Shown in pieces: positions 9,644-34,384 of a DNA stretch of 64,000 bases (its first letter is position 1; each line of letters begins with the position of its first letter). This DNA comes from Burkholderia sp. NRF60-BP8 (GTDB lineage: Bacteria; Pseudomonadota; Gammaproteobacteria; Burkholderiales; Burkholderiaceae): the NCBI RefSeq assembly GCF_001522585.2, contig NZ_CP013372.1, positions 2,046,001-2,110,000 of the forward strand, written 5' to 3'. Both the position numbers and the translations under genes were made by a program. Under the pieces are notes generated by a model, which was given only the letters and a program-made list of their open reading frames with translations, made no database searches and had not been told where the DNA came from.

Positions 9644-10306
9644 ATGCGCGTACTGCTCGTCGAGGACGATCCGCTGATCGGCAGCGGGCTCGAACAGGGC
9701 CTCAAACAGGAAGGCTTCGCGGTCGACTGGGTGAAGGACGGCGACGCCGCGTCGCTCGCGCTGCGTGCGACCGGCTACGGGCTGCTGCTGCTCGATCTCG
9801 GGCTGCCGAACCGCGACGGCCTGTCGGTGCTCGCGGCGCTGCGCCGCCGCGACGAAAACCTGCCCGCGATCATCATCACCGCGCGCGACGGCGTGCCCGA
9901 CCGCATCGCGGGCCTCGACAGCGGCGCGGACGACTATCTCGTCAAGCCGTTCGCGCTCGACGAGCTGCTCGCCCGCATTCGCGCGGTCAGCCGCCGCCAT
10001 GCAGGCCGCGCGCAGACGACGCTCGCGATCGGCCCGCTGCGGCTCGATCCCGTCAAGCACCTCGTCTGGCTCGACGACGACGAAGTGCCGCTGTCGCCGA
10101 AGGAATTCGTGCTGCTGCACGAGCTGATGCGCGAACCGGGCGCGGTGATTTCGCGCGAACAGTTCGAGGAACGGCTGTACAGCTGGGGCGAGGAAATCGA
10201 GAGCAACGCGGTGCAGGTGCATATCCACAACCTGCGCAAGAAACTCGGTCACGACATGATCCGCACGGTGCGCGGCGTCGGCTACCGGATCGGTGACGGC
10301 ACGTGA
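9644..10306 (+). CDS. qseB: QseB-like response regulator
   Basis: 220 residues from ATG 9644, 7 bp after GAGAC. The receiver domain has the acidic pair at residues 8-9, phospho-acceptor Asp51 in LLLLDLGLPNRDG, and the conserved KPF near residue 104. The C-terminal half is an OmpR/PhoB winged helix (PLSPKEFVLLHELMREPG...VQVHIHNLRKKLG...IRTVRGVGYRIG). It is in the QseB/PmrA/TctD group. The stop codon overlaps the start of the histidine kinase, indicating translational coupling. Confidence 0.9.
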   Translation: MRVLLVEDDPLIGSGLEQGLKQEGFAVDWVKDGDAASLALRATGYGLLLLDLGLPNRDGLSVLAALRRRDENLPAIIITARDGVPDRIAGLDSGADDYLVKPFALDELLARIRAVSRRHAGRAQTTLAIGPLRLDPVKHLVWLDDDEVPLSPKEFVLLHELMREPGAVISREQFEERLYSWGEEIESNAVQVHIHNLRKKLGHDMIRTVRGVGYRIGDGT

Positions 10307-11679
10307 CACGCATGCAACGCGCGGTCGCGCGCTGGCGCAACGCGTCGTTGCGGCGGCGCCTGCTGACGTGGCTGCTGCCGGCCGCGTGCGTGATCGGCCT
10401 GGTCGCGAGCGCCGGCACTTACTGGGGCGCGCTGCGCGAACTCGACGATCTGCTCGACGACCAGATGCGCAGCATGTCGAAACAGATCGTCGTCGGCCCG
10501 AACGGCGAGCTGTCGTTCAGCAACCACGCCAAGGGCAAGCACGGCTTCGAAGCGAGCGACCCCGATGCGGTGCTGTTGCAGGTATGGCGCAACGGCGCGC
10601 TCGTGTATTCGACCGACCGCGACTCGAAGCTGCCGCCGCCCGCGCAGCAAGGCATCGCGAGCGTCGACGTCGACGGCCAGCCGTGGCGCACCTATGTGAC
10701 CGAGCGCGGCGGCACGACGATCCGGCTCGCGCAGGCGCGGCATGCGCGCTGGGAGGCGATCGCGGGCATCGCCGTCCACCTGCTGTGGCCCGTGTTCTCG
10801 ATGCTGCCGCTGCTCGCGCTCGGCCTGTGGTTCGGCATCGGCGCGGGGTTGCGGCCGTTGCGGGCAATCGCGTCCGGCCTGAAACGCAGGAATGCGAACA
10901 ACCTCGAGCCGGTCGACGTCGCATCGATGCCGAACGAGGTCCGCCCGCTTGCCGAGGCCATCAACGACCTGCTCGCCCGCCTCGACCGCTCGTTCACGTT
11001 GCAGCGGCACTTCATCGCCGATGCCGCGCACGAGCTGCGCACGCCGATCATGGGGCTGTCGATCCAGTCGCAATTGCTGCAACGTGCGGCGACTGCCAAG
11101 GAACGCGAGCACATCCTCGCGCAGATCCATGCGGGCACGACGCGCCTCGGCCACCTCGCCGAACAGTTGCTGACGCTCGCACGCCTCGAGCCCGATGCGC
11201 AGGCGGCCGCCGGCGCGTCGGCGCCGGTCGATCTCGCCGCGCTGTGCCGTTCGGTGGTATCGGACCGCGCGCGCGTCGCCGACGCGCACCGGATCGATCT
11301 CGGTGCGATCGTCGGTGCACCCGTGACGACGGCGGGCAATGCCGACACGTTGCGCGTGCTGCTGAACAATCTCGTCGACAACGCGATCCGCTATGCGGGC
11401 GAAGGCGCGCGCGTCGACGTGTCGGCGCGCATGGACGGCGCGACACCCGTACTCGAAGTCGCCGACGACGGCCCCGGCATCCCGGAGGCCGAACGCGCGG
11501 ACGTGTGGGAACGCTTCTATCGCGGCGAAGGCGCGCAAGCCGCCACGTCGTCGGGCAGCGGGCTCGGGTTGTCGATCGTCAAGCGGATTGCCGAACAGCA
11601 TCGCGCGACCGTCGCGCTCGGGACTACGCACGGCGGGCGCGGGCTGACCGTCACGGTGCGCTTCCCGCAGCCGAGCTGA
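10303..11679 (+). CDS. qseC: QseC-like sensor histidine kinase
   Basis: 458 residues if the GTG overlapping the qseB stop is used; ATG 10312 is the alternative. Two membrane helices (about 21-42 and 153-178) bracket a ~110-residue periplasmic domain of the 2CSK_N type (DLLDDQMRSMSKQI, LQVWRNGALVYSTD). After a HAMP-like segment comes the H-box IADAAHELRTPIMG with His243, the N-box NNLVDNAIRYAGEG, then DDGPGIPEAE and SGSGLGLSIVKRIAEQH for ATP. It should phosphorylate the adjacent regulator. Its signal is not readable from sequence. Confidence 0.9.
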   Translation: MTRMQRAVARWRNASLRRRLLTWLLPAACVIGLVASAGTYWGALRELDDLLDDQMRSMSKQIVVGPNGELSFSNHAKGKHGFEASDPDAVLLQVWRNGALVYSTDRDSKLPPPAQQGIASVDVDGQPWRTYVTERGGTTIRLAQARHARWEAIAGIAVHLLWPVFSMLPLLALGLWFGIGAGLRPLRAIASGLKRRNANNLEPVDVASMPNEVRPLAEAINDLLARLDRSFTLQRHFIADAAHELRTPIMGLSIQSQLLQRAATAKEREHILAQIHAGTTRLGHLAEQLLTLARLEPDAQAAAGASAPVDLAALCRSVVSDRARVADAHRIDLGAIVGAPVTTAGNADTLRVLLNNLVDNAIRYAGEGARVDVSARMDGATPVLEVADDGPGIPEAERADVWERFYRGEGAQAATSSGSGLGLSIVKRIAEQHRATVALGTTHGGRGLTVTVRFPQPS

Positions 11680-11691
11680 TACGCGGGCGGC

Positions 11692-11769
11692 TTGTCCACA
11701 GATTATGTTGGCAAGCGTGTGGACAACCTTTCAGCAACGGCAGCAAGCCCTTGATCGGTAAGGGTTTGT
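11692..11769 (+). repeat. Paired-box intergenic repeat, copy 1
   Basis: TTGTCCACA (11692-11700) and TGTGGACAA (11718-11726) form an exact 9-bp inverted pair separated by 17 bp that include TGTTGGCAAGC. TTGATC starts at 11751, exactly 59 bp after the first box. The copy begins 12 bp after the qseC stop codon. Confidence 0.9.
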
Positions 11770-12079
11770 CGTGCGTGCGCGGCAAATGCGCCGGACCGGG
11801 GCAAGCGCGCGCCCGCGTTGGTTGTCGTCGCCGTCTGGCAAGCCGACGCGGAATTCATGAAGCGTCATCTCGACGCAGCTTCATCGCGCGCTCGGCAAAA
11901 GCCCGACCTACCTGAACTACGCGGTCCGGGATTCGACGCGAAGCCGTCGGTCTGTCCGTCGTTCGCCGTCGCCTGCCCGCGCCTGTTCCAGAAGGTCTGG
12001 CGTGGCCGGTATCTCCGCAGCGTGAGCCGGCGTGCGAAGCGTGGCAGCGCGTGGCATCGGCCGAATCGCGAATGCGGAC

Positions 12080-12157
12080 TTCTCCACAGAAAATGTTGGC
12101 AAGCTTGTGGATATCCTGCGCACCGCGGCGCTAAACCCTTGATCCGATGGACTTTGG
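12080..12157 (+). repeat. Paired-box intergenic repeat, copy 2
   Basis: TTCTCCACA at 12080-12088, TGTTGGCAAGC in the spacer, TGTGGATAT at 12106-12114, and TTGATC at 12139. Box spacing and the 59-bp offset are the same as in copy 1. Confidence 0.9.
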
Positions 12158-12306
12158 CACGCGTGATGCAGACAAGGCCCGGACAATGGCCATCGCCTTC
12201 ACCGCTTCGCCGCACATCGCATCACGATGCCACGACGATGTCCGTCCCAATGTACGTCAGATGGGCGTCGACACCCCGCACGCATACCGGACCGGCGCTG
12301 CGCCAC

Positions 12307-12384
12307 TTACCCACAAATTTTGTTGGCAAGCTTGTGGATATCCTGCGCAAGCCTGCGCTAACCCGTTGATCGGCCTGCGATTCG
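12307..12384 (+). repeat. Paired-box intergenic repeat, copy 3
   Basis: TTACCCACA at 12307-12315, TGTGGATAT at 12333-12341 and TTGATC at 12366. The spacer is again 17 bp with TGTTGGCAAGC. Confidence 0.9.
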
Positions 12385-12606
12385 TGCCGCGCGTCACGGT
12401 TTCGGCAACGCGCGGCATCGGCATGCGCGAACAAGGACGATCGGGCGCCCGCGCAGCACCCTGCCGATGCCTTGACGCCCGTGCCCGCCGCGCATCAAGA
12501 TCACGCAAGCCGCACGCGAGCCGCGCATCGTCGGCCATGCGCGTGGCCGCCCCGGGCCGGTCGTGCCGCCGGCACCGTATCGCGACACCTCACTCCGAGG
12601 AAGACC

Positions 12607-12807
12607 ATGGAACACTTCACCGCGTGGCAATTGCTCGTCTCGCTCGTGCTCGTCGCCATCGTCGTCTATCCGTACGTCCGCATCGTGCGGCGCACCGGGC
12701 ATTCGGGCTGGTGGATCCTGACGATGTTCGTCCCGGTGCTGAACTTCATCATGTTGTGGGTGTTCGCGTTCGCGCGCTGGCCCGCCGTCGACGATCGGCA
12801 GCCCTGA
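12607..12807 (+). CDS. Small two-helix membrane protein
   Basis: 66 residues from ATG 12607, preceded by GAGGAAG. Two hydrophobic segments, about residues 6-24 and 34-56, are joined by the positively charged turn RIVRRTGHSGWW; this predicts an inner-membrane hairpin protein. I do not recognise the family with confidence, although similar short proteins with a GHSGWW turn are common in proteobacteria. It stands alone between repeat copies 3 and 4. Confidence 0.65.
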   Translation: MEHFTAWQLLVSLVLVAIVVYPYVRIVRRTGHSGWWILTMFVPVLNFIMLWVFAFARWPAVDDRQP

Positions 12808-12834
12808 GCGTTGCGGTCGCGGCCGCGCGCGAGC

Positions 12835-12912
12835 TTGTCCACAGATTGTGTTGGCAAGCATGTGGATAGCCTGCGCATACCGCGATCAAGCACTTGATCC
12901 GAAAGACTTTGT
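12835..12912 (+). repeat. Paired-box intergenic repeat, copy 4
   Basis: TTGTCCACA at 12835-12843, TGTGGATAG at 12861-12869, TTGATC at 12894. Nearly identical to copy 5 over the whole unit, so these two are the most recent duplicates. Confidence 0.9.
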
Positions 12913-12994
12913 CCGCGCCGCCTCGAAAACGGCACGACGACACCCGATCGCTCGTTGCAGGCCGCGCCGGCACGTGACGCGCCGGCTGCCGTGC

Positions 12995-13072
12995 TTGTCC
13001 ACAGATTGTGTTGGCAAGCGTGTGGATAGCCTGCGCATACCGCGATCAAGCGCTTGATCCGAAAGACTTTGT
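12995..13072 (+). repeat. Paired-box intergenic repeat, copy 5
   Basis: TTGTCCACA at 12995-13003, TGTGGATAG at 13021-13029, TTGATC at 13054. It differs from copy 4 at only a few positions across the unit. Confidence 0.9.
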
Positions 13073-13134
13073 TCGCGCCGACTCAAACGCGGCACGCCGG
13101 CCGCGCGTCGCGCCGGGCGCCGCGGCGCGCGGGC

Positions 13135-13212
13135 TTGTCCACAATTTTTGTTGGCAAGCATGTGGATATCCTGAGCATGCGCGACCTAAGTCGTTGATCG
13201 CACAACGTTTGA
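13135..13212 (+). repeat. Paired-box intergenic repeat, copy 6
   Basis: TTGTCCACA at 13135-13143, TGTGGATAT at 13161-13169, TTGATC at 13194. It ends 67 bp before the stop codon of penA. Confidence 0.9.
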
Positions 13213-13278
13213 TCGTGCGGATCACGACTGCGGCACGGCGCGCCCGCGGCCCTCGCCACGCGCGCCGTGCCGCGCGGC

Positions 13279-14217
13279 TCAACCGAACGTCCGCGCGACG
13301 ATGCGCGCGGCCGACGCGATCACGTCGTCCTTCGCCCGTGCATCGGCTCGCGTCTGCGTGTAGTACACGGCCAGCACGATCGGCGCGCGCGACGTCGGCC
13401 AGATGACGCCCGCATCGTTGGTCGTCCCGTAATCGCCGGTACCGGTCTTGTCACCGACCGTCCATCCGGCGGGCACGCCCGCGCGAATTCGCTTGTCGCC
13501 GACCTTGTTGCCGCGCAGCCACGCGACGAGCTGCGCACGCTGCGCCGCCGGCAGTGCGTCGCCGAGCGTCAGCACGCGCATGCTGGCGGCCATCGCGGCG
13601 GGCGTCGTCGTGTCGCGCGGGTCGCCCGGCAGCGCGGTATTCAGTTCGGTCTCCCATCGATCGAGACGGAACATGTCGTCGCCGATCGAACGCGCGTAGG
13701 CCGTTACCGCCGACGGGCCGCCGATCAGCTTCATCAGCAGGTTCGCGGCCGAGTTGTCGCTGTACTGGATCGCGGCCTCGCACAGCGCGGCGACCGTCAT
13801 GCCCGCGCCGACATGCTTCTCCGACACCGGCGAATAATTGACGAGATCGGCCTTGGTATACGTCACGCGCTGTTGCAGCAGGCCCGGCCGCTCGACGCTC
13901 TGCGCGAGCACCGCCGCACTCAGCATCGCCTTGAACGTACTGCAGAACGGGAAGCGCTCGCCCGCGCGATGCTCGATGACGCGGCCGCTCGCCGTGTCGA
14001 TCGCGCACACGCCGAGACGGCCGCCCGCGTCGCGCTCGAGATCGGCGAGCGTCGTCGCCGCCGCGACGGGCGCGATGGCGTCCGCAGCAGCCGCCGCTGC
14101 CGCCGCGGCTGGGTCCGGCGCCGCAGCCTGCCGCGACGCGCACGCGGTGACGGTGAGAACGAGCGGCGCCGTCGCGGCGGCCAGCAACAGGGTTCGACGT
14201 TTCGTTGAGTAGGTCAT
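13279..14217 (-). CDS. penA: Class A beta-lactamase (PenA-type)
   Basis: 312 residues from ATG 14217. The N-terminus has a twin-arginine-like KRRTLLLAA and a lipobox-like VTAC with Cys26, in keeping with Tat export and lipidation known for Burkholderia PenA/PenI; an Ala-rich linker follows (about 31-55). All class A motifs are present: S93-T-F-K96, S153-D-N155, E189-x-x-x-N193 of the omega loop, and K257-T-G259. It hydrolyses penicillins and cephalosporins in the periplasm. It is divergent from penR over a 135-bp gap, the ampR-type arrangement for inducible control. Confidence 0.95.
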
Positions 14218-14306
14218 GTCGGTTGTCTCGTGGTGGAATGGCGGCAAAACGGTGTGGCGTGTCGAAAACGGCCGGCCGCCGAGACAGCACTATCGAGACT
14301 TTACGG

Positions 14307-14321
14307 TTGCCTGACAAGCAA
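14307..14321. promoter_or_regulatory. LysR-type operator candidate between penA and penR
   Basis: TTGC-N7-GCAA at 14307-14321 is a perfect inverted repeat containing the T-N11-A core of LysR-type binding sites. It is placed 32 bp before penR and 90 bp before penA, so PenR could act on both promoters. Confidence 0.55.
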
Positions 14322-14352
14322 CGATAATTGAGCGCTGACAAAAGAAATACTT

Positions 14353-15243
14353 ATGACAAAACTCCGTCCTCATCTCCCGCTCAATGCGTTGCGCGCGTTC
14401 GAATCGTCGGCGCGCCACCTGAATTTCACGCGCGCCGGCCTCGAGCTGAGCGTGACCCAGGCCGCGGTCAGCCAGCAGGTGCGCTCGCTGGAGGAGCGGC
14501 TCGGCTGCACGTTGTTCACGCGGCTGCCGCGCGGTCTCGGGCTGACCGACGAGGGGCGCGCATTGCTGCCGGTGCTGAGCGACGCGTTCAGCCGCATCGA
14601 GACGGTGCTCAAGCAGTTCGACGGCGGGCGCTTCCACGAGGTGCTGACGCTCGGCGTCGTCGGCACCTTTGCCCTAGGCTGGCTAATGCCGCGACTGAAG
14701 CAGTTCGGCGACACGCACCCGTTCGTCGAGCTGCGGCTGCGGACCAACAACAACGTCGTCGACCTCGCCGCCGAGGGCCTCGATTTCGCGATCCGCTTCG
14801 GCGTCGGCAATTGGCCGGCGACGCGCAACGAGCAACTGCTCGATGCGCCGCTCACCGCGCTGTGCACGCCGGACATTGCGCGGCGTCTCGCGCAGCCGGC
14901 CGACCTCGCGAACGAAACGCTGCTGCGCTCGTACCGCACCGACGAATGGCTCGGCTGGTTCGACGCCGCGCAGCTCGAGCCGTGGGCCGTCAACGGGCCG
15001 GTGTTCGACTCGTCACGGCTGATGGTCGAGGCCGCGATACAAGGTGCGGGCGTCGCGCTCGCGCCCGCCTGCATGTTCGCGCGCGAACTGCAGCTCGGCC
15101 AGCTCGCGCGGCCGTTCGACATCGACGTGCGCGCGGGCGGCTACTGGCTCACGTCGCTGAAGTCAAAACCGCTGACGCCCGCGATGACGCTCTTTCGCGA
15201 CTGGATCGTGGCGGAAGCGGCCGGCGCGGCACCCCTCGAATAA
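14353..15243 (+). CDS. penR: PenR, LysR-type (AmpR family) regulator
   Basis: 296 residues. It has the AmpR/GcvA-like N-terminal winged HTH (LPLNALRAFESSARHLNFTR...VTQAAVSQQVRSLEERLG...FTRLPRGLGLTDEG). The effector domain contains VVGTFALGWLMPRLKQF and LDFAIRFGVGNWPA. AmpR proteins respond to muropeptides and switch beta-lactamase expression. Its place, divergent from penA, supports the assignment. Repeat copy 7 starts 12 bp after the stop codon. Confidence 0.92.
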   Translation: MTKLRPHLPLNALRAFESSARHLNFTRAGLELSVTQAAVSQQVRSLEERLGCTLFTRLPRGLGLTDEGRALLPVLSDAFSRIETVLKQFDGGRFHEVLTLGVVGTFALGWLMPRLKQFGDTHPFVELRLRTNNNVVDLAAEGLDFAIRFGVGNWPATRNEQLLDAPLTALCTPDIARRLAQPADLANETLLRSYRTDEWLGWFDAAQLEPWAVNGPVFDSSRLMVEAAIQGAGVALAPACMFARELQLGQLARPFDIDVRAGGYWLTSLKSKPLTPAMTLFRDWIVAEAAGAAPLE

Positions 15244-15254
15244 CGCGGCCGCGC

Positions 15255-15332
15255 TTGTCCACAGAATGTGTTGGCAAGGATGTGGATATCCTGGGTATCC
15301 GGGGCCTAAGCCTTTGATCGCGCACGCATTCG
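15255..15332 (+). repeat. Paired-box intergenic repeat, copy 7
   Basis: TTGTCCACA at 15255-15263, TGTGGATAT at 15281-15289 and TTGATC at 15314. The spacer reads TGTTGGCAAGG, one base off the consensus. Confidence 0.9.
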
Positions 15333-15431
15333 TGCGCCGATGCGCGGCGCGGGCAGCCTTTGCGCACGGGCTTCGCGCACCCGTCGCATTCCGGCCGGAT
15401 CCTCAACGCCTGCGACGCAATCGATTGCGAG

Positions 15432-15509
15432 TTGTCCACAGATTTTGTTGGCAAGCCTGTGGATATCCGCCAGATCGGGCGCGTAACATCTTGATACAGA
15501 AGGGGATTC
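15432..15509 (+). repeat. Paired-box intergenic repeat, copy 8
   Basis: TTGTCCACA at 15432-15440, TGTGGATAT at 15458-15466. The distal element is TTGATA at 15491, one mismatch, still at the 59-bp offset. Confidence 0.9.
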
Positions 15510-15605
15510 AGTTCACGGACCTTGGCCGGTCAATGGTGTGGCACCGCAACGATTGTCGAACCGCACGCCGCGCACGCGTGGCGCACCCGGCCGATGGCCG
15601 GGCGG

Positions 15606-15683
15606 TTCTCCACAGATTGTGTTGGCAAGCTTGTGGATATCCTGCGTATCGGGCACCTAACTGATTGAGCGCACGGGGTTTTG
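15606..15683 (+). repeat. Paired-box intergenic repeat, copy 9
   Basis: TTCTCCACA at 15606-15614, TGTGGATAT at 15632-15640. The distal element is TTGAGC at 15665, one mismatch at the same offset. This is the last copy seen in the window. Confidence 0.9.
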
Positions 15684-15726
15684 TGCTGCGTCTGCCGAAT
15701 CGGGCAGCGCCTGCGCCGCCCGTGCG

Positions 15727-15978
15727 TCAATGGCGGTCGAGGCCGCCGCGCAATTCGCTCGCCTTGTCGCGCAGCGCTTCGTAGCCCGAACGCGCATGCT
15801 CGGGCAGGTCGGGGTCGCCGATCAGTGCGCCGAGCGTTTCGATCAGGCTGAACAGGATGCCCTTCGCCGCGCCGACCGCGATGCTCTGCGATTCGATCGA
15901 CTTGTGCAGGTGGTCGACCGCCGCTTCCAGATTCTCGAGCTTGTGCTCGCCGTCGTCGGGCCGATTGTCGGTCGTCAT
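15727..15978 (-). CDS. Small soluble hypothetical protein
   Basis: 83 residues, acidic at the N-terminus, with a helical amphipathic core (HKLENLEAAVDHLHKSIESQ) followed by a hydrophobic helix-like stretch (GAAKGILFSLIETLGALIG) and a charged tail. The start ATG 15978 has GGAGGTAG about 9 bp upstream. No recognised domain; a small helical bundle or multimer is possible. It is transcribed alone, with the glycosidase gene upstream on the same strand. Confidence 0.65.
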   Translation of the reverse strand: MTTDNRPDDGEHKLENLEAAVDHLHKSIESQSIAVGAAKGILFSLIETLGALIGDPDLPEHARSGYEALRDKASELRGGLDRH

Positions 15979-16074
15979 CGTCTACCTCCGCCATCGTTCA
16001 GGGGTCATGTCACGATTCTATGCCGCCGCGCGCGAACGTGGCGCGACATCGCGCAACGTTCGCGCGGCACGCCG

Positions 16075-33472: not shown

Positions 33473-34075
33473 GCGCGCGGCACGGCGGTAGCACAAGACA
33501 CCCTGTTGCCGTACCCGTCGCCGACTGTTCGGTGCGTCCCTGGTCACTAGCGGCGCGCGAACCTCTCCACCCAGAAGCCATTTCCGACTGACACGACGGG
33601 CAAAGCCGCCGCGCGTCGCATTCGGTACCGGCACGGACGGGCTACATATCTGCCCGCCTTCTCTACCGTGCACCCCACGCGAAGGCCATCTGTTCAATGC
33701 CTTCGCCTCCATCCGGGCAGTCCGCCCGCTGCTTTTGCCGGACTGGACACACCATCCACGCCATTCTCCAGCGGCGCTCCAATTTCCTGCCCGGATAAGC
33801 GAGACCCTTGGCCCTGCCGCTCGCGAGGATTCCGAATCAACCCTCATTGCAATCGGAAAACGTCGACCAGTCCGATTTGACAAATTTAACAAAAATAACA
33901 ATCGGCAACAATTTGATTATCTCTAAAAAATAAATCCTTGAAAAAACAACACCATAAAAATTAACCTATAAAAACACAGGAATACTAAATTGAAATTTGT
34001 TAATAAATATTAAAGCTATATCCGCGACATCAAACAATCGCTATCTTTCCTCAACCCGTCACAAAGGAGGTTTCG
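33473..34075. other. Intergenic transition into an AT-rich island
   Basis: 603 bp without a supportable gene. The first ~400 bp are of ordinary GC content; from about 33870 the sequence turns strongly AT-rich (runs of AAAAATAA and similar), giving a promoter-like entry to the next gene. A strong AAAGGAGG ribosome-binding site precedes ATG 34076. No terminator or known repeat was recognised. Confidence 0.5.
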
Positions 34076-34384
34076 ATGCATTCCAAACAAAGTTTCTCCA
34101 CTCGGAAGGCCACCAGATTGGCTGCAGTCACCTTTGGCATCGTCATTGCCTTGCTTCATCCTGGCAGTGCTGCAGCCGACGGCCTTGCGAGCAAAATCCT
34201 CGAAGGTCCGAACACTTCCAATCAACGAGCATTCACAAGTTGCTCCGTTTTCTACACAATGTGCATTCAGCGATACGGTAGCAGACCCGGCAGCACGGCT
34301 GGCATGACACGATGCGCAGATTGCTTGAATAACTGCAATCGCTCGAATGGATGGTGGCCGATGATCAGCGGTTGCGCCGTATAA
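34076..34384 (+). CDS. Secreted six-cysteine miniprotein
   Basis: 102 residues with AAAGGAGG before the start. The signal peptide is residues ~1-34 (FGIVIALLHPGSAAA-D), giving a mature chain of about 68 residues. It has exactly six cysteines at 56, 63, 80, 83, 87 and 100 (TSCSVF, TMCIQR, RCADCLNNC, SGCAV), suggesting three disulfides. No family was recognised. Such a size and pattern is seen in secreted toxins, bacteriocins and effectors, but none is named here. It overlaps the next frame and is followed by a DsbC-like gene, which could fold it. Confidence 0.72.
   Translation: MHSKQSFSTRKATRLAAVTFGIVIALLHPGSAAADGLASKILEGPNTSNQRAFTSCSVFYTMCIQRYGSRPGSTAGMTRCADCLNNCNRSNGWWPMISGCAV

Follow-up and report, generated by a model that had tools for sequence, protein, structure and literature searches.

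Introduction

DnaA-reactivating sequences (DARS) have been described at two or more single loci in Escherichia coli, and related sites are known in gammaproteobacteria. DARS1 and DARS2 promote the release of ADP from DnaA, and their cores consist of three DnaA boxes with equal spacing, box I being opposite in orientation to boxes II and III (PMC5742627; this and the other papers given by PMC number are cited from excerpts). Head-to-head binding of ADP-DnaA by boxes I and II has been proposed (PMC8682772). The DARS2 core is conserved in gammaproteobacteria related to E. coli (PMC4245941), and DARS-like sequences are described on chromosome 1 of Vibrio cholerae (PMC6090056). The datA locus also consists of DnaA boxes plus a site for integration host factor (IHF) (PMC5742627), and its layout, as pieced together from the excerpted literature, has DnaA boxes beyond the IHF site too. 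No DARS report for Burkholderiaceae was found among the titles and abstract openings searched. Here we describe a repeat array in a 64,000-nucleotide stretch of the Burkholderia sp. NRF60-BP8 genome (contig NZ_CP013372.1, positions 2,046,001 to 2,110,000, hereafter the window). It is probably, with a rough probability of 0.62, an amplified DARS-like array, where DnaA and IHF would turn ADP-DnaA back into ATP-DnaA. As far as the titles and abstract openings go, such an array in Burkholderiaceae would be a new variant of the known DARS class.

Nine modules of fixed geometry at a single locus

The window contains nine copies of a module between positions 11692 and 15681 (C1:2057692-2061681 in genome coordinates), all on the + strand and all intergenic. 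Their first boxes start at 11692, 12080, 12307, 12835, 12995, 13135, 15255, 15432 and 15606, giving copy-to-copy spacings of 388, 227, 528, 160, 140, 2120, 177 and 174 bp. Copy 1 lies 12 bases past the stop codon of a qseC-like gene, and copy 7 lies 11 bases past that of penR. The core pattern TGTTGGCAAGCNTGTGGATA, with up to 3 mismatches, matched nine times in the window against 0.01 expected (100 shuffles), and nowhere else in the 7.08-Mb genome. The count and the common orientation given by an initial annotation, made from the letters of the window, were thus borne out, as was the location of the copies outside coding sequence, relative to the named genes. The unit of fixed geometry stands at one locus in its own genome and recurs across Burkholderia.

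In module coordinates, where the first base of box I is 0, all nine copies have a layout of 9-5-9-3-9 bp, with box I opposite in strand to boxes II and III. Box I (0-8, + strand) is mostly TTGTCCACA; box II (14-22, - strand) is TGTTGGCAA and nearly invariant in Burkholderia; box III (26-34, - strand) is TGTGGATAT-like. Boxes I, II and III match the DnaA consensus TTATCCACA at 8, 6 and 8 of 9 positions, respectively, in every window copy, and 18 of the 22 boxes in the window with at most one mismatch fall within 11600-15700. B. cenocepacia DnaA shares the residues that set DnaA-box recognition, according to the excerpt of PMC4948915. The initial annotation had described an inverted pair of DnaA-like boxes; the boxes are real, but each copy has three 9-mers, not two. 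Its box-to-box length of 35 bp holds in all nine copies, from the start of box I to the end of box III, and the conserved spacer sequence it reported is exactly TGTTGGCAAGC in eight copies and TGTTGGCAAGG in copy 7. The motif CACAG, which a DNA methyltransferase of B. cenocepacia targets, closes box I plus the next base in 7 of the 9 copies.

The second element reported earlier, TTGATC starting at +59, is present in all nine copies, with one mismatch in copy 8 (TTGATA) and in copy 9 (TTGAGC). Its position was right, but it is merely the right half of a longer IHF-type motif, YAANNNNTTGAT, which occupies 52-63. The stretch between box III and TTGATC had been called variable in sequence and fixed in length; the length is indeed fixed, yet CCTGCGCA at +35 to +42 is well conserved. 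A T-tract follows at 73-75, beginning 8 bp past TTGATC. In natural IHF sites, an A-tract lies on the same side and at the same distance.

Conservation was followed in 155 copies from 20 Burkholderia genomes, picked by the core alone with up to 4 mismatches, a threshold that misses more diverged copies. It jumps at position 0 and drops to or near background past +75, so that the conserved unit measures 76 bp, from 0 to about +75, and closes in the short T-tract. The motif YAANNNNTTGAT was found at +52, with at most one mismatch, in all 155 copies (120 exact), against a mean of 0.38 and a maximum of 12 at other offsets between -140 and +229. This test of the motif is independent, because the copies were chosen by the core alone. 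The published IHF consensus, TAAnnnnTTGATW, is printed in the excerpts of PMC8682772 and PMC4245941.

An alignment (A1) and a sequence-only model (R1) were built from 63 copies, comprising 8 of the 9 window copies, 33 of the 155 Burkholderia copies, 21 of 34 core matches from other genera, and a copy on chromosome 1. Module 1 (11692..11767, 68.4 bits with R1) has TTGTCCACA as box I, TGTTGGCAA as box II, TGTGGACAA as box III and CAAGCCCTTGAT as IHF-type motif, followed by the T-tract. Module 2 (12080..12155, 68.3 bits) has box I TTCTCCACA, box III TGTGGATAT and IHF-type motif TAAACCCTTGAT. Its 35-bp DARS-type core, 12080..12114, is made up of box I at 12080-12088 (+), box II at 12094-12102 (-) and box III at 12106-12114 (-), with spacers of 5 and 3 bp, and its IHF-type motif lies at 12132..12143 on the - strand, reading YAANNNNTTGAT on the + strand, at +52 from the start of box I. 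Module 3 (12307..12382, 66.9 bits) has box I TTACCCACA and IHF-type motif TAACCCGTTGAT. The first box is again TTGTCCACA in module 4 (12835..12910, IHF-type motif CAAGCACTTGAT, 72.2 bits), module 5 (12995..13070, CAAGCGCTTGAT, 72.3 bits), module 6 (13135..13210, TAAGTCGTTGAT, 73.4 bits), module 7 (15255..15330, TAAGCCTTTGAT, 65.8 bits; the copy with spacer TGTTGGCAAGG) and module 8 (15432..15507, TAACATCTTGAT, 63.6 bits). Module 9 (15606..15681, 70.5 bits) has box I TTCTCCACA and IHF-type motif TAACTGATTGAG with one mismatch. Modules 4 and 5 are near-identical across the whole unit.

Likeness to E. coli DARS1 and DARS2

The module was compared with the DARS1, DARS2, datA and oriC regions of E. 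coli MG1655, 15.5 kb together. The DARS1 core lies in bioD-uvrB, and the triple of boxes between rppH and mutH was taken as the DARS2 core. The 9-5-9-3-9 triple is common to DARS1, the rppH-mutH triple and all nine window copies. A free scan over 11 x 11 (121) spacer combinations, requiring the + - - layout and a match of at least 7/9 in each box, returned triples only in the DARS1 and DARS2 regions and only with spacers of 5 and 3 bp; none was found in the datA or oriC regions. The rppH-mutH triple is followed by two IHF-type matches at +93 and +109, which are 3 bp apart. This agrees with the 3 bp separating the DARS2 sites IBS1 and IBS2 (PMC4245941, excerpt).

In an unfiltered run over the same 15.5 kb, the top match of model R1 was DARS1 (11.1 bits, E 0.0038), followed by the DARS2 core (7.5 bits, E 0.052); the register was correct in both. 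The datA and oriC regions yielded nothing better than short matches to a single box (4.8 and 4.1 bits).

The module thus shares with both DARS loci the three boxes, the 5- and 3-bp spacers and a box I opposite to boxes II and III, and with DARS2 the IHF-type site beyond box III. Like them, the array lies away from the origin and from the opposite pole. It differs in comprising nine same-strand modules on the secondary chromosome, where E. coli has single sites; in its conserved unit of 76 bp, against 101 or 455 bp in E. coli; and in its degenerate box II (TGTTGGCAA). DARS2 also has the Fis-binding sites FBS2-3, whereas the array has no Fis consensus at a fixed offset among the 155 copies. The Fis result excludes only the DARS2 subtype, because DARS1 works in vitro without added factors, according to the excerpt of PMC5742627.

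Occurrence in Burkholderia and other Burkholderiaceae

Core matches were present in all 65 Burkholderia genomes searched, with 4-12 per genome including strays, whereas a reversed-pattern control gave 0-2 per genome. In the part of these genomes whose match places were listed, the matches form mainly one cluster in one orientation, and stray matches with 3 mismatches occur outside it. The exact extended pattern (core plus IHF-type motif) was found in at least 120 stretches of GTDB genomes, and the 120 listed all belong to Burkholderiaceae (Burkholderia, Paraburkholderia, Caballeronia, Trinickia and Pararobbsia). It had no exact match in viral contigs.

At E <= 0.001, model R1 matched 150 of 200 Burkholderiaceae genomes in 15 of 25 genera. 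Some of these matches are weak: several positives, in the genera labelled g2, g3 and g24, reach only E about 1e-4 to 1e-5, and the family scan used stricter filters that may miss weak copies. Of the 20 genomes listed as having no match, 18 are 2.8 Mb or less in size; a further 30 no-match genomes lie beyond those listed. With a cut-off of E <= 0.01 and partial matches counted, eleven more genomes of other genera gave 3-11 matches each, often grouped in clusters of 2-4 on the same strand.

Outside Burkholderia, the core pattern matched 34 times in 27 genomes. Box I is present in 29 of these matches, and the five without it were treated as chance core matches. YAANNNNTTGA was found at +52 with at most one mismatch in 26 of the 29 (17 exact). 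Box I is the perfect consensus TTATCCACA in 10 of the 11 copies printed from three g11 genomes, with box III at 7-8/9. A perfect box II, TGTGGATAA, occurs in one copy each of G234 (g3), G127 and G182 (both g24), in each case with unchanged spacers and with the IHF-type motif at its usual +52. Genus g3 was taken as Cupriavidus because of a 100% match between one of its genomes, G305, and C. metallidurans CH34. Through their perfect box I or box II, these relatives partly link the module to the DnaA consensus.

Position on the chromosome

The c2 iteron core of B. cenocepacia (PMC4948915, excerpt) was used as a marker for the origin of the secondary chromosome, ori2. In all 20 genomes with listed places for both, the ori2 iterons and the array share a contig, which is 2.3-3.9 Mb long. 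In this sample each contig was taken as a whole replicon, G064 was left out and the genome of the window was added separately. The terminus was taken as opposite ori2 because a dif-site pattern found nothing (0 of 14 genomes). On this scale the array lies at 0.34-0.69 of the half-replicon from ori2 in the 20 genomes, with a mean of 0.51 and a standard deviation of 0.07. It reads towards ori2 in all 20 and lies on the other arm in two. In the genome of the window, the iterons are at C1:1489-2645 and the array is about 740 kb away, at 0.53 of the half-replicon. The ori2 iterons are repeats on the same replicon as the array, but their sequence differs and they lie about half a replichore away on average.

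By the map minutes in the excerpt of PMC4585315, E. coli DARS1 is at about 0.64 on one arm and DARS2 at about 0.42 on the other. In the three g11 genomes, a cluster of three copies (about 0.59-0.61) and one of two (about 0.62-0.65) share an arm, and the opposite arm holds a single copy at 0.40-0.43. In other genera the positions vary; examples are near 0.3, 0.94, and close to dnaA in G112.

A putative DnaA-reactivating function

Five observed features underlie the DARS-like reading, namely the geometry, the IHF-type motif, the conservation, the single locus and the position on the chromosome. From them we infer protein binding, nucleotide exchange and cell-cycle timing. Binding of DnaA and IHF to the module is a well-supported prediction, and ADP would then be released from DnaA at the module. 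ADP-DnaA would bind boxes I and II head to head, with box III helping, and IHF would bend the flank and activate the DnaA complex. ADP would leave, and apo-DnaA would be set free to reload ATP. Nine such units at mid-replichore would raise the dose at a set time.

The initial annotation had proposed that the boxes titrate or load DnaA in a datA-like or replication-linked function, and had given no named family that fits. The link to replication is supported by the sequence and well founded, because each module has the geometry of a DARS core, together with an IHF-type site; a DARS is a better fit than origin loading, pure titration or hydrolysis of the datA kind. The remark about named families was too pessimistic, since the anatomy of DARS fits.

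Several observations weigh against a DARS-like function. Box II matches the DnaA consensus at only 6/9 positions in all nine window copies, whereas it is the best box in E. coli, and for this reason the window copies would fail the 7/9 cut of the E. coli scan. In the three copies whose box II is perfect, boxes I and III reach just 6-7/9 and the model scores are weak (E 1.6e-6, 0.0019 and 3.8e-4). Box I is unrecognisable in 7 of the 10 g3 and g24 modules printed (2 of 3 in L275, 2 of 3 in L288 and 3 of 4 in L290). Three of the 29 full cores from other genera (L071, L083 and L096) have no IHF-type motif at +52, and in both copies of the two-copy cluster of G158 the motif lies 1 bp further. The IHF 13-mer TAANNNNTTGATW is rarely perfect, with 0-4 mismatches and 2 perfect copies among 63. 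The motif stands at +52, against +93 and +109 in E. coli DARS2, and a Fis consensus at any fixed offset was found in at most 7 of the 155 copies. The E. coli E-values apply to a preselected 15.5 kb and would lack significance genome-wide. The mid-replichore position, finally, may partly reflect shared synteny.

In the modules of L275, L288 and L290 without box I, box II is seemingly shifted by one base, and the spacing of box III and the IHF motif is kept. These copies are possibly half-modules with another role.

A more specific version of the DARS-like reading, speculative and on balance unlikely, would make the array a DnaA-recharging station borne on chromosome 2. Its nine modules would double as the fork passes mid-replichore, and the resulting pulse of ATP-DnaA would license the next firing of oriC1. 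Such a station would be an inter-chromosome signal like crtS of Vibrio, though in the opposite direction and via DnaA itself. The likeness to crtS is in the idea only, that of a site possibly coupling two chromosomes in their replication. From chromosome 1, crtS triggers chromosome 2 via RctB (PMC6090056, excerpt); the array sits on chromosome 2, and its effect would come via DnaA.

If the DARS-like reading is correct, DnaA reactivation would be more widespread and more modular than so far described, structural studies would gain a minimal DnaA/IHF unit in the 76-bp module, and how two chromosomes are coordinated in Burkholderia would become directly testable at one locus.

Alternative explanations

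The strongest rival, possible but considerably less probable, is a datA-like or titration array, in which hydrolysis or sequestration at modules bound by DnaA, with IHF, would reduce the pool of free ATP-DnaA and block re-initiation. It would account for the concentration of 18 of the window's 22 near-consensus boxes at the array, and datA has the same two ingredients, DnaA boxes and an IHF site (PMC5742627, excerpt). However, the E. coli datA region has no triple of the array's layout at any of the 121 spacings. Unlike datA, the array has no conserved box of at least 8/9 beyond the IHF motif, save the boxes of neighbouring copies. Pure titration would presumably need neither a fixed geometry nor a degenerate, nearly invariant box II.

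It is improbable that the modules form a DnaA/IHF-dependent regulatory element with another output, such as transcription of the neighbours or chromosome organisation. The location of copies 1 and 7 directly past stop codons and the CACAG motif, a methylation target in B. cenocepacia, at box I in 7 of the 9 copies would suit such an element. Against it, the array stays in species without the neighbour genes, the two promoter-like sites found both lie between penA and penR and not at the copies, and the fixed DARS geometry would be left unexplained.

A family of small RNAs or hairpin elements, which the initial annotation had listed as a hairpin-forming RNA, is very unlikely. The inverted boxes I and III can pair, and 87% of the alignment cells do so, a value reached by 10 of 500 shuffles; in a single pair of columns, both partners change in 14 cells (6 of 500 shuffles). 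These are columns 8 and 38 of A1, where the third base of box I and its partner in box III covary (A-T, G-C) in 14 of the 63 copies. This covariation could come from relatedness or from the symmetry of DnaA binding: DnaA boxes alternate between A and G at the sole position that covaries, and the sequences share ancestry. The pairing of boxes I and II shows no covariation beyond shuffles. Among the five of nine copies that were folded, one folds better than most shuffles (z -2.17), a single weak sign in favour, and the others gave z-scores of -0.07, -1.26, 0.29 and -0.25. Rfam gave no match at the gathering score over 11500-16000, three sub-threshold matches being taken as chance, and no promoter- or terminator-like sites were found at the copies.

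A mobile or recently amplified intergenic repeat, comparable to miniature inverted-repeat transposable elements or repetitive extragenic palindromes and also raised in the initial annotation, is the least probable of these rivals and was not borne out: many near-identical cores lie in one region and modules 4 and 5 are near-identical, but the copies occupy one locus in one orientation in their own genome and one main cluster in relatives with listed places, 90 of 99 between-species best matches are the positional counterpart, viral contigs gave no exact match to the extended pattern, and conservation stops at the motifs (terminal repeats were not sought separately).

Two further candidates were rejected. 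A phage origin was set aside because window positions 11680-13300 had no match in phages and the extended pattern no exact one in viral contigs. A chromosomal origin was dismissed because the copies have no AT-rich unwinding element, the lowest 60-bp GC content being 0.38 at 14300 between penA and penR, and because the ori2 iterons lie about 740 kb off.

Additional triples elsewhere in the genome

A relaxed core pattern gave 12 matches in the genome of the window, namely the nine copies and C1:2796776, C2:2100365 and C2:2564195. Of the three extra matches, only C2:2100365 has the IHF motif. It belongs to the one module on chromosome 1, at C2:2100362-2100442 (E 4.8e-13), which keeps the geometry to +59, where it reads TTGAGC; measured from dnaA, it lies at 0.77 of the distance to the opposite pole. 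This module (L309 4363-4443) sits past a gene for a pyridoxal-phosphate enzyme (Pfam PALP). Core matches of the form TGTTGACAGGC-N-TGTTGATA are seen repeatedly elsewhere in the genus and the family.

The triple at C1:2796776-2796809 (L308 6767-6814) also has the 9-5-9-3-9 layout, lacks an IHF motif at +52 and lies about 6 kb from the ori2 iterons if the contig is circular. A partial model match was seen at a similar place in G012 (C2:2614615). The third triple, C2:2564195-2564228 (L112), reads TTGTCCACA-CCTCG-TGTGGATAA-CGT-CGTGGACA, has no IHF motif and lies upstream of a putative parE, named by eye.

Neighbouring genes and age of the array

The left neighbour of the array, 10303..11679 on the + strand, encodes a sensor histidine kinase (Pfam HisKA, HATPase_c and 2CSK_N) that was called qseC-like in the initial annotation. 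Two genes lie inside the array, a penA-like class A beta-lactamase (13279..14217, - strand; Pfam Beta-lactamase2) and a penR-like LysR regulator (14353..15243, + strand; Pfam HTH_1 and LysR_substrate).

Between species, the best match of a window copy was the copy at the same position in 90 of 99 cases, counted in those fetched genomes that have nine copies (11 of 20), and eight of the nine misses were module 5 matching the near-identical module 4. By these sequence comparisons, the array is old. A tblastn search (E 1e-8) found a penA-like gene in 16 and a penR-like gene in 15 of the 20 fetched loci. The array is kept without a penA-like gene in L058, L059, L061 and L064, and without a penR-like gene in L058-L061 and L064. 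Within the fetched stretches, L057, L058 and L059 have no qseB- or qseC-like neighbours. The pen resistance genes look like passengers, because the array persists without either gene; the connection to penA and penR made in the initial annotation therefore looks incidental, and regulation of the pen genes was rejected as a function.

Elsewhere in the window, a very AT-rich tract at about 33850-34030 (15% GC over 60 bp, against 67.5% GC for the window) lies immediately upstream of a possible ATG near 34076.

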